Shown here: one piece after another, positions 3,939 to 11,198 of the stretch
Layout of the letters: the number at the start of each line of letters is the position of its first letter
How positions within the stretch are numbered: position 1 is the first letter of the stretch
Source of the DNA: Acidobacteriota bacterium
GTDB lineage: Bacteria; Acidobacteriota; Terriglobia; Terriglobales; Acidobacteriaceae
DNA length: 64,000 nucleotides
Assembly: GCA_021804965.1 (NCBI GenBank)
Contig: JAJZGG010000003.1
Location: forward strand, 1-64,000
Reading direction: 5' to 3'
Notes under the pieces: generated by a model
Told to the model about the DNA's origin: nothing
The model's input: the letters and a program-made list of their open reading frames with translations, nothing else
Databases searched by the model: none
Made by a program: the position numbers and the translations under genes

Positions 3939-5540
3939 CTAGTGAATGGAAAAGATGTTGAGTTCGTGATGCAGTGGATCAAACTGATAGATTTTCAGTC
4001 TTGCTGACGGATCCAGGTTCAGCGTGAGAGCAACCTTGTGCAAGCCCGGCGTTCCGTTGGATGCAACAGGAGGAACATTAATCAATCCCCAGGGACCACC
4101 CGCGTTGATCCACCACCAGTTTCTTCCAAAGGAGAAGGTACACCCGTCGCTGGCCGCCTTGGTTGGATCGGGATCGTAGCCGGACTGGAACTGATTTTCC
4201 CAACCACGTGACCCACCAAAGTCCACGTTCATGTAACTGTGCATGAAGTGGTCGCCATTGAGAAGTGTGATGTGGAGTGTCTGTCCCCGCTTGGTCCACT
4301 GCGGAAGCTTGGTGACATTACCGTAGATTTCATTGTTCACATAGAACAGCGTAACGTCAGCATTGGGATCAGCCTGTACGCCACGCGGCAGATGGGTGCG
4401 ATCCTGAAAATCATCTTCCGAAAGCAGTGCATCCTTCATGAGTGCCACGATTTGCTTCCCACTGGTTGCAGTCAAGGCAGCTTTCAGATCCGACCACATG
4501 ATCTTCTCCGGAGCCAGTTCTCCAAGCTGAGCAATGGCTGTTGCCTGTGCCTGGGGATTAATGCGTGGCGCAGCACCGAAGGTTGAAATCTCCCACTGGG
4601 CAAGGCTTTGTCCTGCGAGGACTTTGCGCGCATTCTCATTGACCTGGACCCGGGGCGGATGGACGCGCCAGCCCCAGGTATAGACAAGATTGAAGTACTT
4701 GGGGGAAGACATCTTGATGCTGAATACGTAGCGGTTGCCCTCCTTCATGGGATAAAAGGTTCCATCCATTCCCACATTTGGCGAACCGTAGCCGGTGCCT
4801 GTTGGAGGCGGAGTATCGAAATACATGATGTAATTGGAAAAATCATCCTCGCCACCATGCAGCACATCCACGGTATACGTGATGGTCCACGTAATGTCTG
4901 CGGGGGCTGAGGATGTGTAGCGATAGTCGATTGCACTGGGATCAATCAGAGCTGTATCGGACATGATATGGCTGTCAAACCAGATCTGATGCACATTCAC
5001 ATTGCCACCAATCATCTTGCCATTTGCATCATAGATGGGCTGCACGGCCTTGATGCGCTCCGGGGCGGTGTAATTCAGGAGCGAGAATCCGTTATAGGTT
5101 GGACTGTCCGACAGTGGATCGCCCTCAAGGATGGAAATTCCTCGCTGAATCAAGGCCGGATTTTTCCTTTTCCCCTTTGAGGCATCCCGCATGACCGTCT
5201 TGAAGATATGGTCAAGTTCCTGGCTTGGAGAGTTTGGATCAATGTGACTGACAACCGGAGGCGTCATAAGATTGAACGGAATTCCGGGCATGGATGGCAG
5301 AGTATTTGGCATCATCGTACCAGTGCTGTCAAACGCATTGGAGAACTGGGTCATCAGAAAGTTTTGTCCCGGAGGTAATGGACTAGGCTTGGTAACCACA
5401 GTCGTCGTTATTCCGTCCGGAGAAAGAGTCTGAATGGAAGGTCCAGGCAGCGGTTGCGGATGCGGATCCTGAGCATAAGCGCAGGTGGCCAATAGCAGCA
5501 ACGCCGCGGTAGCAGCGCATTTCATGAAATGACTCCTCAT
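3939..5540 (-). CDS. Large secreted protein of unknown function in copper/redox cluster
   Basis: 533 residues. I do not recognise the family. A clear signal peptide (residues 1-24, ending CAYAQ) is followed by a proline-rich stretch (DPHPQPLPGPS). The body is rich in aromatic residues and looks like beta-structure; Trp/His/Tyr-rich segments include VHQIWFDSH, YTWGWRVHPP, NGDHFMHSYMNVDFGG and FGRNWWWINAGG. The last 130 residues recall a cupredoxin-like or carbohydrate-binding beta-sandwich, but no copper-ligand motif is complete. The start at 5540 has a strong AAGGAG 8 bases upstream; the longer frame to 5609 overlaps the SCO gene and was rejected. It lies 4 bp after the SCO gene and 4 bp before the TlpA gene, so it belongs to that operon and probably works with the exported oxidase as an extracytoplasmic partner. 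That role is inference from position only. Confidence 0.85.
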   Translation of the reverse strand: MRSHFMKCAATAALLLLATCAYAQDPHPQPLPGPSIQTLSPDGITTTVVTKPSPLPPGQNFLMTQFSNAFDSTGTMMPNTLPSMPGIPFNLMTPPVVSHIDPNSPSQELDHIFKTVMRDASKGKRKNPALIQRGISILEGDPLSDSPTYNGFSLLNYTAPERIKAVQPIYDANGKMIGGNVNVHQIWFDSHIMSDTALIDPSAIDYRYTSSAPADITWTITYTVDVLHGGEDDFSNYIMYFDTPPPTGTGYGSPNVGMDGTFYPMKEGNRYVFSIKMSSPKYFNLVYTWGWRVHPPRVQVNENARKVLAGQSLAQWEISTFGAAPRINPQAQATAIAQLGELAPEKIMWSDLKAALTATSGKQIVALMKDALLSEDDFQDRTHLPRGVQADPNADVTLFYVNNEIYGNVTKLPQWTKRGQTLHITLLNGDHFMHSYMNVDFGGSRGWENQFQSGYDPDPTKAASDGCTFSFGRNWWWINAGGPWGLINVPPVASNGTPGLHKVALTLNLDPSARLKIYQFDPLHHELNIFSIH

Positions 5541-5544
5541 CTGT

Positions 5545-6207
5545 TCAGCTCCTTTTCGCAGTCGGATTCGGCAGGATTGGACTTCCCTGCGGGTGACGTG
5601 GGGGCTCAAGGAAACTCATCCGACGCAGGATTTCTTCTGGACGCGTGATTCCCGGACAGCCTGCCCAGCGATTCAGCCGCTCGTTGCCATAGCGCAAGAG
5701 GCCGGTGTGCGCGCTCTTCAGCTTGTCGAGAACCGGATCCGGATCCGTGAATTTCAACTGCTTGCGGAGCTTCTCCATGGTTGCAGCATCGGAGGTGAGC
5801 AGTTGCCATCCTGTGCCGACTCCCATTCGTTCGGCATAGGCACGCAGGACGCGTGGCGTGTCATGATCGGCATCCAGCGTGAGGGAGTACATGAAGATAT
5901 CCTTGCCCACACGTGGTCCAAGCATGGTGTGCAGCTTGACGAGGTTCCCCATGAGGATGGGGCACAACTCGTCACAACTGGTGTAGAAGAAGTTGATGGT
6001 GACGATCTTGCCTTTGACCAGATCGTTATACAAGCGCTGCCGCTCACCAAACTGATTCATCACAACCGTATCGGGAATCAGCTGTGCGGAAGGCCCTGCT
6101 GGAGCGTGCGAGCAGACAGCCTGCCTGCTGGCTGCTCCTGCTGCCACAGTTGGCAGAAATGCCGCACCGGCTCCGATTGACTTCAAGAGTTCTCTGCGAG
6201 TTGCCAT
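5545..6207 (-). CDS. SCO1/SenC-family copper chaperone-like protein, Tat signal
   Basis: 220 residues. Family role: periplasmic thioredoxin-fold copper carrier for cuproenzyme maturation. The N-terminus has a Tat-like signal (TRRELLKSIGAGAAF, residues 3-17). The SCO copper motif CxxxC is present as FFYTSCDELCPIL (Cys78, Cys82), and a candidate third ligand His167 sits in KSAHTGLL. The 'LDADHDTPRVL' segment (residues ~111-121) matches the SCO 'D.xxDTP' loop. It lies between the multicopper oxidase (37 bp upstream) and the 533-residue unknown secreted protein (4 bp downstream), which supports a role in loading copper into that oxidase. After His167 the sequence departs from classical SCO proteins, with a proline-rich tail. 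I am fairly sure of the family; the client enzyme is inferred. Confidence 0.88.
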   Translation of the reverse strand: MATRRELLKSIGAGAAFLPTVAAGAASRQAVCSHAPAGPSAQLIPDTVVMNQFGERQRLYNDLVKGKIVTINFFYTSCDELCPILMGNLVKLHTMLGPRVGKDIFMYSLTLDADHDTPRVLRAYAERMGVGTGWQLLTSDAATMEKLRKQLKFTDPDPVLDKLKSAHTGLLRYGNERLNRWAGCPGITRPEEILRRMSFLEPPRHPQGSPILPNPTAKRS

Positions 6208-6243: not shown

Positions 6244-7887
6244 TTAGTCGTTGCCCTGGTCACTGTCATCAAATTCATTGGCCACCGAATCCCAGCGGAT
6301 CATCATGGCGTGATCTTCGTGAACAATGTTGTGGCAGTGCATGACGTAGTGACCCTGGAAGTCGCGAAATTGCATGAAGATCTGAATTTCATCCTTCGGG
6401 CCGAGCCAGACGACATCCTTGCGGCCGTAATCATTGCTTCCCGGCTGGATGGGCTGGCCATTGCGGCGGAGAATACGATGCTCTTCCATGTGGATGTGGA
6501 TCGGATGCGACCATCCGGTGCCCATATTGCGCAGTGTCCAAATCTCGGCAGAGTTCATCAGCGGCGCAGCATCCACACGATCCTTGTCGTAGACCTTGTC
6601 GTTGATCAGCCAGCTGCCATTGAAATAGTCAAACTCAAACAGGCGATGCCGTCGCACCGAGTTGGGATCAATCTCGGGCAGTGGAATCATGGTGGCAGGG
6701 ATCACGCTGAGATCCGGCTTGCGAAGCGTCTTGACGACATCGAAGCGCATGACCGGATCGCCCGGATTCATGTACTGTATGGGGATCTCCGGCCCGCGTC
6801 CGCTGATCTGGTAGAGGATATTGGTGAGCGTGACCGAGGAGCCGAAAGGAACCTGTGAAAAGTCCACGATCACATCCACACGCTGCGCCATGGCAAGCGG
6901 AATGTTGGTTGGGGAATAGGGCTCCGGCAGGAGATTTCCGTCACTGGAAAGCACGACCGGCTGCACGTTATCGAACTGCAGCGTGAGGAAGCGCGAGGGG
7001 CAGCTGTTTACGAACCGCAACCTGTACTTTCTCGGCTCAACCTGAAAGTACGGTGTGACGATGCCATTAACGGTCATCTTGTCGCCTAGAACGCCATCGG
7101 TGTTAAAAATGTCCAAGTACAGCTCGCCATTGCTGTCGAAGGCTCGATCCATCAACAGAAGCGGAACGTCGTAGTCACCGCTTGGCAGATGGAATGCATT
7201 TGGATTCGGATCGTGTTCATCGCCGGAGTCAAACTCGTTATAGAGGATGTAGGAACCGTACAGACCCTTGTATACATTGGCGGCCGTGTAGTCATCCATG
7301 TGGTCGTGATACCAGAGCGTGGCCAGCATCTCTCGCCAGTCATTGCCGGCGGGAAAGTTTGCATAGTGATGATCGTGGTAGTAGCCGGAATCGACGTAGT
7401 CGTCGGGAAATCCGTCACTTTCCGCTGCGGCATGCATGTTATGCAGGTGGGTCGTAATGGATGGCGTAGCAAATCCGGAGTGGTTTGCCGGCAGTTTGTT
7501 GTTCATGCGAACAAGGATGGGTTCGCCATAGCGGGCAACAATCATGGGGCCGGGACTGCTGCCCTGATATCCCCAGACCAGGCTCTTGGGCAACTGGGGA
7601 TGAAACTGCCAGGGGAATTCCGTGATTTCGAAGTTATAAAACTTCTTTGGCGGGTACTGGTTATACAACTGATGGTTAGCCGGAATTGGCGGCGGATAGA
7701 GTTTCGATACAGGCTGCGCTTTGGGAAGGATGTACAGCGGGCTCACGAAGGGCGTGGTCGCTGGGCTGGTGGTGGGGAGCGGATCAATTTCTGCAGTACA
7801 GATCTGGGCATGCGCAGCATAGGGCTTGAGTGCAAGCCCGCTGCCTCCAAGCGCAACAAACTTTAACACCTCGCGGCGTCGAGTCAT
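6244..7887 (-). CDS. Tat-exported multicopper oxidase (CotA/bilirubin-oxidase-like)
   Basis: 547 residues, typical length of a three-cupredoxin-domain multicopper oxidase that couples one-electron oxidation of a substrate to O2 reduction to water. A Tat signal occupies residues 1-27 (TRRREVLKF... ending AHA). All four copper-ligand blocks are visible: HLHNMH (~147-152), WYHDHMD (~192-198), HPIHIHMEEH (~455) and HCHNIVHEDHAMM (~520), the last giving the type-1 copper Cys, His and an axial Met. It resembles bilirubin oxidase/CotA more than CueO because no Met-rich insert is seen. It heads the cluster SCO, unknown secreted protein, TlpA on the same strand, and an AraC-type regulator gene lies just upstream, also on the same strand. 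Substrate could be metal ions, phenolics or bilirubin-like compounds; sequence does not decide. Confidence 0.94.
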   Translation of the reverse strand: MTRRREVLKFVALGGSGLALKPYAAHAQICTAEIDPLPTTSPATTPFVSPLYILPKAQPVSKLYPPPIPANHQLYNQYPPKKFYNFEITEFPWQFHPQLPKSLVWGYQGSSPGPMIVARYGEPILVRMNNKLPANHSGFATPSITTHLHNMHAAAESDGFPDDYVDSGYYHDHHYANFPAGNDWREMLATLWYHDHMDDYTAANVYKGLYGSYILYNEFDSGDEHDPNPNAFHLPSGDYDVPLLLMDRAFDSNGELYLDIFNTDGVLGDKMTVNGIVTPYFQVEPRKYRLRFVNSCPSRFLTLQFDNVQPVVLSSDGNLLPEPYSPTNIPLAMAQRVDVIVDFSQVPFGSSVTLTNILYQISGRGPEIPIQYMNPGDPVMRFDVVKTLRKPDLSVIPATMIPLPEIDPNSVRRHRLFEFDYFNGSWLINDKVYDKDRVDAAPLMNSAEIWTLRNMGTGWSHPIHIHMEEHRILRRNGQPIQPGSNDYGRKDVVWLGPKDEIQIFMQFRDFQGHYVMHCHNIVHEDHAMMIRWDSVANEFDDSDQGND

Positions 7888-9056: not shown

Positions 9057-9572
9057 TCACTGTGTCTGCGGTGGATTGCCTGTGGATGAACTGCCGGCTG
9101 CAGGGCTATTGTCTGTCTTGGTTGGCGACGGCGAGTTCGGTCCAGAAGCCGGGGTTGAAGGACTGGCATCCGCTCCTGCTCCATTCGTCGACGCTGGATC
9201 GGGTGGAATTGGCTGTTGCGTCGCAGTGGAGGATGGCTTGGGTGGAGCAGTGGGAAATATCCGCACTTCGGGTGAGTCTTCCGAATAGGAACGGGCGGAT
9301 TTTGCCGTATCGGCATTGCCTTTCCACAGAGGCTTTCTGTGCCCATCGGCAAAGACTTCCACGGGAATTCCCCACTCATATTCGACCGTGCCACCAGGCT
9401 CCGGCTTCAATGTGGGGTTGGTGGAATGCTTGTCTGCTGCACTGGCAGGCTTGGTTACAGCCACGGCAGCCGTCGGTGCAACGGTTTTGGCGAGTGGGGA
9501 TGAGACTTGCTGTGCACGAACGAGAGCAGGCAGGAACAGCAGGGCAATGGATAACCAGTATGCGTGTTTCAT
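9057..9572 (-). CDS. Proline/serine-rich exported protein, unknown function
   Basis: 171 residues. Signal peptide at residues 1-21 (KHAYWLSIALLFLPALVRAQ). A short ordered segment, VEYEWGIPVEVFADGHRKPLWKG (residues ~62-84, quoted from two adjoining parts), is followed by a long low-complexity tail rich in Pro, Ser, Thr, Ala, Asn and Gly that is likely disordered. The start at 9572 is fixed by GAGGAG four bases upstream; a longer frame to 9764 lacks both. I do not recognise it. It ends 6 bp from the receiver-like gene on the other strand. An extracytoplasmic location is well supported, but function is not. Confidence 0.75.
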   Translation of the reverse strand: MKHAYWLSIALLFLPALVRAQQVSSPLAKTVAPTAAVAVTKPASAADKHSTNPTLKPEPGGTVEYEWGIPVEVFADGHRKPLWKGNADTAKSARSYSEDSPEVRIFPTAPPKPSSTATQQPIPPDPASTNGAGADASPSTPASGPNSPSPTKTDNSPAAGSSSTGNPPQTQ

Positions 9573-9776: not shown

Positions 9777-10487
9777 CTATACCAGGGATTCGATTTCTGC
9801 ATCCAGATCAATGGCGACCTCGGAGAGTATCTCCAGTCGTTGATCCTCCAGAACGCCAGGACGGCTTCGTTTGGCAAGCATCTGATCGCGCCGCGCAAGC
9901 ACAGCATGAACCTGACGGGAACAGAGCGCAATCACAGACTCGATAACGGTATCGATCTGCGGATTACGGGTGCGCAAACGCATACCATGCAGCAGCTCCA
10001 GCGTCAGCTCAGCGCTGAGCATCGCGTCTCCGGTCACCCAGCTGTTGACGGTGAAAAGCGAGATCGGAAGCCCATTGGCATTGAGACCGATGGAAAGGAG
10101 ATGCCGGGTGCTGGATCGGGAAAGACGGGCGCAGGTGAGTTTACGGAATTCTTTCTCGCGCGCAGTGGCTGATGCAGAACCCCACAGTGATCGGCGCGCA
10201 AACAGATGGATGTGTCCATGCTCGATCGCATCCGGACGATCCTCCGGGGAATGCGAATGGTAAAACCACTGATACCCGCGAGTAACATCGACGGCATCGT
10301 TCTCCGGATAATGCTCCCACTGACGAGGCGCTTTCCCCTGCAACAACCGGGTCAGCAGATGTTCCCGCCTGGCGGCAAGCCCGGAATAGACCTTTTGAAT
10401 GCGCACGGCTGCAGACAATCGGCGCCGAGGAGTTGCGCCGATTGCTGCAGTTCCAGCAAAGTCCGAAGTTACATCTTGGGCGCGCAT
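9777..10487 (-). CDS. Cytoplasmic protein of poorly known family, coupled to Cys-rich peptide gene
   Basis: 236 residues, no signal peptide or membrane segment. The conserved-looking core is GYQWFYHSHSPED (residues ~70-82) followed by IEHGHIHLFARR (~87-98), giving five His within 25 residues, and later HLLSIGLNANGLPISLFTVNSW. From memory this resembles a family listed as DUF6969, but I could not check. The His-rich block suggests metal binding or metal-dependent chemistry. Start set at the ATG 10487, which lies inside the last codons of the upstream Cys-rich gene (19-bp overlap) with GGAG five bases upstream, so translation is probably coupled. The longer frame to 10619 reads antisensically meaningless text out of frame across the Cys-rich gene and was rejected. 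Likely acts on, or is co-regulated with, the secreted peptide. Confidence 0.78.
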   Translation of the reverse strand: MRAQDVTSDFAGTAAIGATPRRRLSAAVRIQKVYSGLAARREHLLTRLLQGKAPRQWEHYPENDAVDVTRGYQWFYHSHSPEDRPDAIEHGHIHLFARRSLWGSASATAREKEFRKLTCARLSRSSTRHLLSIGLNANGLPISLFTVNSWVTGDAMLSAELTLELLHGMRLRTRNPQIDTVIESVIALCSRQVHAVLARRDQMLAKRSRPGVLEDQRLEILSEVAIDLDAEIESLV

Positions 10488-10714
10488 TTGGCTCCGCACT
10501 TGGCCGCGCACTTCTGCATCTTCCGGGACTTCTTCATCTTCTTGGACTTCTTCATCTTTGCCATGCACTTGGAAGCGCACTTGCCGGCACACTTGGAGCT
10601 GCTGGCAGCCGGACGACACTGCGGTTGACCGCTATAGGCCGACACTGCAGCGGCAGGAAGGGTGATGGCAGCAGTGAGTGCAGCCAGGGAAGCCACTTTG
10701 AGGACGTTCTTCAT
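10469..10714 (-). CDS. Small secreted Cys/Lys/Met-rich protein with KC repeats
   Basis: 81 residues. Residues 1-26 are a signal peptide (ends AAAVSA). The mature part has seven Cys. Six form two clusters of C-x3-C-x3-C (Cys42/46/50 and Cys69/73/77), each Cys preceded by Lys: KCAGKCASKC and KCAAKCGAKC. Between them is a Lys/Met/Ser linker with Met at 51, 54, 60 and 66, and the last residue is Met81. Such Cys/Met density outside the cytoplasm points to soft-metal (Cu, Ag, Zn) binding, or to a precursor that is chemically modified. The start at 10714 has GGAG nearby and gives a perfect signal peptide. It overlaps the start of the His-rich partner gene by 19 bp. It could be a bufferin-like or metallothionein-like peptide, but it lacks a neighbouring DUF692/MNIO gene. 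Function is inferred. Confidence 0.82.
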   Translation of the reverse strand: MKNVLKVASLAALTAAITLPAAAVSAYSGQPQCRPAASSSKCAGKCASKCMAKMKKSKKMKKSRKMQKCAAKCGAKCAPKM

Positions 10715-11105: not shown

Positions 11106-11198
11106 TGGCGGAGAGAGAGGGATTCGAACCCTCGATAGAGCTTTTGACCCTATAACGGTTTAGCAAACCGCCGCCTTCAGCCTCTCGGCCATCTCTCC
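11106..11198 (-). tRNA. tRNA-Ser, anticodon GCU
   Basis: Read on the minus strand, the sequence begins GGAGAGATGGCCGAG and ends in the pairing acceptor strand TCTCTCC followed by G and an encoded CCA (11106-11109). It has the class-II long variable arm (TATAGGGTCAAAAGCTCTATC region), the T-loop GGTTCGAATCC, and the anticodon loop TTTGCTAAA with anticodon GCT, reading AGC/AGU serine codons. All stems pair. Without CCA the gene is 11109-11198. Confidence 0.97.

Follow-up and report, generated by a model that had tools for sequence, protein, structure and literature searches.

The window, meaning the whole 64,000-nucleotide stretch of acidobacterial DNA analysed here, contains a pair of overlapping genes on its minus strand. 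The upstream gene (10469..10714) encodes an exported peptide of 81 amino acids. Its predicted Sec signal peptide (residues 1-26; 10637..10714, minus strand), MKNVLKVASLAALTAAITLPAAAVSA with an AxA end, was assigned by eye and by a hydrophobicity rule. The translated sequence contains seven cysteine residues, of which six are preceded by lysine in two KCxxKCxxKC clusters, KCAGKCASKC (10565..10594, minus strand) and KCAAKCGAKC (10484..10513, minus strand); the seventh, Cys33, is preceded by glutamine. There are 17 lysine and 2 arginine residues, and no aspartate or glutamate. The downstream gene (9777..10487, minus strand) encodes a protein of 236 amino acids lacking a signal peptide, and is a member of the DUF6969 family (PF22308, E = 4.6e-52; score 177 bits, cutoff 27). 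Its start at 10487 lies within the peptide gene, and the two translated frames share 19 bp (10469..10487, minus strand), so that translational coupling is likely. The initial annotation had described the signal peptide, the overlap, a His-rich YHSHS...EHGHIHLF motif in the partner and a resemblance to DUF6969, all of which are borne out. Its two C-x3-C-x3-C clusters with lysine before each cysteine are also present, but the additional Cys33 had been overlooked.

The nearest relative of the DUF6969 protein is found in an Acidobacteria MAG (L002), with 82% identity to that of the window. The dN/dS ratio between the two genes is ~0.20, which indicates that the DUF6969 gene is under selection; given also that the two-gene layout recurs elsewhere, the pair does not consist of chance open reading frames. 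The next gene on the same strand (9057..9572, minus strand) encodes a Pro-rich secreted protein with no Pfam match, and this adjoins DUF6969 in L002 too. The same-strand neighbours further include a multicopper oxidase (6244-7887, minus strand) and SCO1/SenC (5545-6207, minus strand), identified by Pfam in the window and by eye in L002. A 556-amino acid secreted protein (3939-5609, minus strand) without a Pfam match adjoins these two genes, and is also present in L002. On the other side, upstream, a tRNA-Ser (gct) gene (11106-11198) is separated from the peptide gene by about 390 bp; tRNA genes are common landing sites for transferred DNA.

Scans of the partner protein against Pfam and NCBIfam matched DUF6969 alone, a sequence search of the PDB for the family (query A1) returned nothing at E<=1, and literature searches on DUF6969, PF22308 and the peptide repeat motifs gave no relevant paper. 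In an alignment covering 41 of the 49 loci described below (L014, where the frame is broken, is left out), H77, H79, H92, H94, H129, N148 and R200 are present in all 41 proteins, down to 21% identity to that of the window, and H59 and D64 in 39. Four of the invariant histidines fall within the YHSHS...EHGHIHLF motif (residues 76-96; 10200..10262, minus strand), and the codon of the fifth, His129, is at 10101..10103 (minus strand). An AlphaFold2 model of the window protein places H77, H92, H94 and H129 in predicted strands and H79 just past one, making it plausible that they form a shared metal site. This model (pLDDT 79, pTM 0.82) and a second model of DUF6969 (pLDDT 84.8, pTM 0.86) were built from shallow alignments of 5 and 6 sequences. 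A fold search of both against the PDB gave nothing at E<=0.001, a result that excludes no family, and the best Z-scores from a second structural aligner were 3.5 and 3.7; the second model found no fold match among viral models. With the start nearest to the domain taken, 48 of the 49 proteins show no hydrophobic stretch at the N-terminus, the sole exception being an 11-mer at a locus other than the window. DUF6969 is thus most likely located in the cytoplasm, where it would meet the peptide before export. MNIO enzymes are likewise understood to meet their peptide before export.

The peptide itself matches no family of Pfam or NCBIfam at E<=1, including the known metallothionein families of Pfam, although such profiles are weak for so short a sequence. 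Nor was it matched in plasmids by tblastn with the low-complexity filter on. The ASLAALTAA stretch of its signal peptide recurs exactly in three other KC peptides, those of L003, L065 and L071. Nine DUF6969-linked peptides were scanned, and none is recognized above cutoff by the Pfam or NCBIfam models. Below cutoff, the NPC peptide of L062 matches BufA2 (E = 0.056), the KC peptide of L011 matches a radical-SAM Cys-rich RiPP model (E = 0.044), and C_tripleX is matched by L065 (E = 0.025) and by L011; in genome G337, which has no DUF6969 match, residues 1-23 of an NPC peptide match the PtrA N-terminal model (E = 1.3e-4). The partner peptides are highly diverse, comprising KC, NPC, CGAK and PCVKTKAG types and acidic Cys lipoproteins; that of L094 has 2 basic and 15 acidic residues.

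How general is the pairing? Of the 49 DUF6969 loci that we compared, 43 come from fetched regions (L056-L099, minus L082, which has a DUF6969 fragment at a contig edge) and four from plasmid records (L011-L014); the other two are those of the window and L002. Open reading frames were called by a simple longest-ORF rule, and a pair was counted where an exported ORF with at least four cysteines and a repeated Cys dipeptide ended between -400 and +100 of the DUF6969 domain, a criterion drawn up with the loci already in view. By this rule a Cys-repeat gene lies directly upstream of DUF6969 in 37 of the 49 loci, compared with 8 of 435 control genes of the same regions (Fisher p = 4e-37 with near-copies retained, many loci being close relatives and hence non-independent events). 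By eye none of the eight control matches resembles a Cys-repeat peptide. Four of the 37 are fusions of Cys repeats to a cytochrome (L060, L078, L088 and L091). The genes are forced to overlap in 8 of the 37 pairs, and the gap is within 40 bp in 24. Among the 12 loci that fail the rule, six have a Cys-repeat gene no more than 2 kb away but differently arranged (L056, L084, L085, L086, L087 and L090) and two are contig ends (L002 and L089). No Cys-repeat gene was found near DUF6969 at L012, L057, L083 and L092. Exported NPC-repeat proteins are encoded elsewhere in the genomes of L057, L083 and L089; a genome-wide search for an NPCAA or NPC-repeat peptide in that of L092 (G856) found none, and for L012 the search covered the plasmid alone. 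In L085, L086 and L087 the gene of an FGE-sulfatase-like protein (by Pfam for L087) separates DUF6969 from a divergent gene for an NPC-repeat peptide.

The reverse test was made on 399 genomes of the order of Paralcaligenes ureilyticus (G300), which we take to be Burkholderiales, using KC and NPC patterns at the DNA level. These were matched in 20 of the 25 genomes with DUF6969 and in 8 of the 374 without, six of the eight by chance. Since the patterns were built from peptides already viewed, the high rate in the DUF6969 genomes is partly built in, and the informative half of the test is the low rate in the others. The KC pattern occurs in 10 genomes, of which five carry DUF6969, with all of their matches falling at the locus of that gene; five are among the 374 without DUF6969, and there none of the matches is by eye an exported KC peptide. 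The NPC pattern occurs in 19 genomes, of which 16 have DUF6969 (counting G311, with a fragment only). By eye, two of the three without it contain a genuine peptide and G598 does not. One of the two (G658) has its NPC peptide next to a cytochrome with a short NPC stretch, and the other (G337) has it near an MNIO-DUF2063 operon, with a Buf1-like precursor in between. In the window's own genome a narrower NPC pattern, which misses the NPCAAKNPC type, gave a single match, and this is not a Cys-repeat peptide. The peptide and DUF6969 therefore constitute a real and recurrent two-gene module. The recurrence that the initial annotation had looked for is thus present, and the observation that would have counted against it, a partner regularly lacking a Cys-rich gene, is confined to four assessable loci among the 49, and two of these four genomes encode such a peptide elsewhere.

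The type of peptide follows the phylogeny of its partner. On a tree of 48 DUF6969 proteins (L014 again left out for its broken frame) the four peptide classes, labelled by eye, require 5 changes, compared with a mean of 18.0 on shuffling, where none of 200 was as low. One branch (87/87) has all 13 KC-labelled proteins on the same side, where the label includes L064 (CGAK), L078 (a fusion) and L002 (peptide cut off); L057 and L089 were labelled NPC from peptides elsewhere in their genomes, and L083 as none despite having one elsewhere. Thus partner and motif class, KC or NPC, are co-inherited. This is suggestive, though no more than that, of the relation between a RiPP-type precursor and its modifying enzyme.

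The distribution of DUF6969 is uneven. In the phylum of the window one genome out of 297 has it, namely the window's own. It is present in 25 of 399 genomes of the order of P. ureilyticus and in 20 of 398 of the phylum of that species (about 5-6%), and viral contigs gave one partial copy, at a contig end (L123). On the tree the window and L002 fall in a set of seven (100/99) with proteins of G298, G299, G300, G420 and G509, all five belonging to the order of P. ureilyticus or reached via Burkholderiales loci. The branching order inside this set is left undecided by the tree, and there is a long-branch warning for L097, L064, L011, L096 and L066. The single occurrence in the phylum and the membership of this set together make it likely that the window's pair was acquired by horizontal transfer.

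What, then, surrounds the module elsewhere? From 229 neighbouring ORFs (ten loci, mostly near-copies, having been left out beforehand) 140 were drawn, of which 20 were dropped by hand. Among the remaining 120 proteins the commonest families, as raw counts, are Sulf_transp (7) and Rhodanese (6); SoxA-TsdA cytochrome c occurs 3 times. A cluster that includes a rhodanese (L076) has one of its genes near DUF6969 in 10 loci, mostly just after it. In L056, L058, L060, L061, L078, L088 and L091, near DUF6969, NPC or KC repeats are fused to a haem-binding cytochrome c, of SoxA/TsdA type by Pfam in L061 and by eye in the rest. The copper neighbours of the window are not general. At the other loci no kind of neighbour is commoner than sulfur genes, and several of these loci indicate sulfur rather than metal chemistry. 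In a plasmid of Burkholderia glumae the genes next to the pair are those for thioredoxin, CcdA and arsenosugar functions; the region (L182, 43000-64000) contains ArsS, TIGR04282/TIGR04283 and MTA phosphorylase besides the KC peptide and DUF6969. All of these neighbourhoods are thiol-reactive, and the ligand of the peptide may differ by lineage.

The initial annotation had suggested that DUF6969 replaces the MNIO enzyme of bufferin-type systems. In favour of this, and of MNIO-INDEPENDENCE, 21 of 42 DUF6969 genomes (some of them incomplete) contain nothing that matches the MNIO family PF05114. Yet where MNIO is present it mostly has a precursor of its own. Of 27 MNIO loci, 19 have a Buf1- or Buf2-like precursor and seven have no clear precursor by eye, and in G337 and G623 MNIO likewise goes with Buf1. 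This weakens the notion of a replacement on the same substrate, and the DUF6969 pair looks instead like a system parallel to the MNIO bufferins. At the remaining one of the 27 MNIO loci (G298:C14, L178) the peptide encoded before MNIO has CSKK repeats and resembles neither Buf1 nor Buf2. The genome of the window has a single MNIO match, on another contig and with its own Buf2-like precursor, so the window pair is separate from the bufferin system of its own genome. That precursor matches the BufA2 model below cutoff (E = 1.6e-4) and no Pfam family. This separate bufferin-type cluster of the window's genome (L001, G000:C100:5369-9151) comprises a Buf2-like precursor and MNIO, together with a DoxX-like protein and a probable partner of DUF2063 type, the last two identified by eye. 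The two systems do occur close together in places. MNIO is found within 9 kb of DUF6969 in 3 of the 43 fetched regions (G623, G415 and G1038); in G623 a Buf1-MNIO-DUF2063-DoxX set is followed by a CGAK peptide and DUF6969, and in the B. glumae plasmid a distance of about 8 kb separates the KC pair from a bufferin set of DUF2282-DUF692 type. Such proximity hints that the DUF6969 pairs and the bufferins have related roles.

By analogy with MNIO, we propose with about even confidence that the two genes form one module, in which DUF6969 would be the cytoplasmic, metal-dependent maturation partner of exported thiol peptides, in a role like that of MNIO but from another family. We infer that DUF6969 would remain in the cytoplasm and act on the Cys-repeat precursor through a His/Asp metal site, recognizing it, perhaps through the conserved signal or leader, ahead of Sec export. 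It would either modify the Cys repeats or load and protect them. Once in the periplasm the mature peptide, with its many thiols, would soak up thiophilic species like a sponge, copper being the most likely ligand at the window's locus. A bolder version, which we advance tentatively and would put at appreciably less than even, is that DUF6969 is a hitherto unrecognized class of peptide-modifying enzymes that depend on a metal and have no relation to MNIO, radical SAM or YcaO enzymes. It would rewrite the Cys repeats of exported KC and NPC precursors (for example into thio-heterocycles or persulfides), founding a second family of exported thiol RiPPs, independent of MNIO, for copper and sulfur stress.

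The neighbourhoods bring in the possibility that the pair handles reactive sulfur such as sulfane sulfur or thiosulfate, the Cys repeats carrying or buffering sulfur in the periplasm and receiving it from sulfurtransferases and from cytochromes of SoxA/TsdA type. Such a role is compatible with a maturation partner, and we regard it as possible but doubtful. The leading neighbour families, the cytochrome fusions (with a Pfam assignment for L061 only) and the ten loci with a gene of the L076 type all speak for it, and metallothionein-3 is reported to bind sulfane sulfur (PMC12618007). The loci with a sulfur context are partly close relatives, however, and the counts from which they emerge are raw; moreover four pairs are near bufferin operons, and the window and L002 have copper proteins, with no sulfur transporter noticed beside the pair. 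Alternatively DUF6969 could be a metal-binding chaperone or holdase in the cytoplasm that keeps the precursor reduced and competent for export, or a metal sensor that tunes translation through the overlap, the peptide being an unmodified metallothionein-like thiol. The diversity of peptide sequences served by one partner family fits a general thiol chaperone as well as it does an enzyme, and the forced overlaps and short gaps are also in keeping with this. We nevertheless consider it rather unlikely, because the conserved set of histidines and the class-wise co-inheritance resemble an active site with substrate specificity, and the profile scans of the partner matched nothing but DUF6969 itself.

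Two further explanations have little to recommend them. With 19 Lys and Arg residues and no acidic ones, the window peptide might be taken for a secreted antimicrobial or toxin, with DUF6969 as its immunity or maturation protein. Yet other partner peptides are acidic (L094) or lipoproteins and no dedicated exporter is obvious among the neighbouring ORFs of the window, so that we find this very improbable. That peptide and DUF6969 are functionally unrelated neighbours is scarcely credible; the four loci of 49 with no Cys-repeat gene nearby would allow it, but it is contradicted by the association tests in both directions.

The maturation-partner reading gives a functional lead for an uncharacterized family that about 5-6% of the sampled genomes around Paralcaligenes encode, and the analysis brings to light a set of exported Cys-repeat peptides that the Pfam and NCBIfam models miss above cutoff. 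If DUF6969 does modify its peptides, exported thiol RiPPs would have evolved at least twice with different enzymes.

Several known systems share elements with the module. Bacterial metallothioneins and copper storage proteins have a similar density of cysteine for soft metals, while the window pair is distinguished by exported low-complexity repeats, a dedicated partner gene and the absence of a Pfam match. With the carriers of sulfur oxidation and the SoxT/YeeE modules some of the DUF6969 loci have in common that thiols of the periplasm occur together with transporters of YeeE type, rhodaneses and cytochromes of SoxA/TsdA type. Neither SoxY nor SoxZ was matched among the peptides scanned, however, and the terms searched in the SoxT/YeeE paper (PMC11582611) show no Cys-repeat peptide. 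The closest likeness is to the bufferins (Buf1/DUF2282 or Buf2, with MNIO PF05114, DUF2063 and DoxX), where a Sec-exported Cys precursor is also encoded directly before a cytoplasmic partner and the neighbourhood (DoxX, DUF2063, ECF sigma) is sometimes the same. The window peptide has the Sec signal peptide and the Cys motifs of a bufferin, and the pair is bufferin-like in its layout, but it is not a bufferin by membership. No MNIO gene lies beside the precursor, and the peptide does not match the DUF2282/Buf1 or BufA2 models, which is a weak test given that the Buf2-like peptide of the same genome is also below cutoff. The partner in bufferins is MNIO, whereas here DUF6969 accompanies KC repeats that no model matches. 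Bufferin precursors are rarely present without MNIO according to PMC12452194, in contrast to the DUF6969 genomes, half of which have no MNIO match. The same paper describes the Buf_EGKCG/oxazolin precursors, which are likewise exported and have repeated KC motifs; their EGKCG occurs in 17-residue repeats and goes with MNIO, whereas the cysteines here are mostly spaced by 4 or 6 residues and go with DUF6969.
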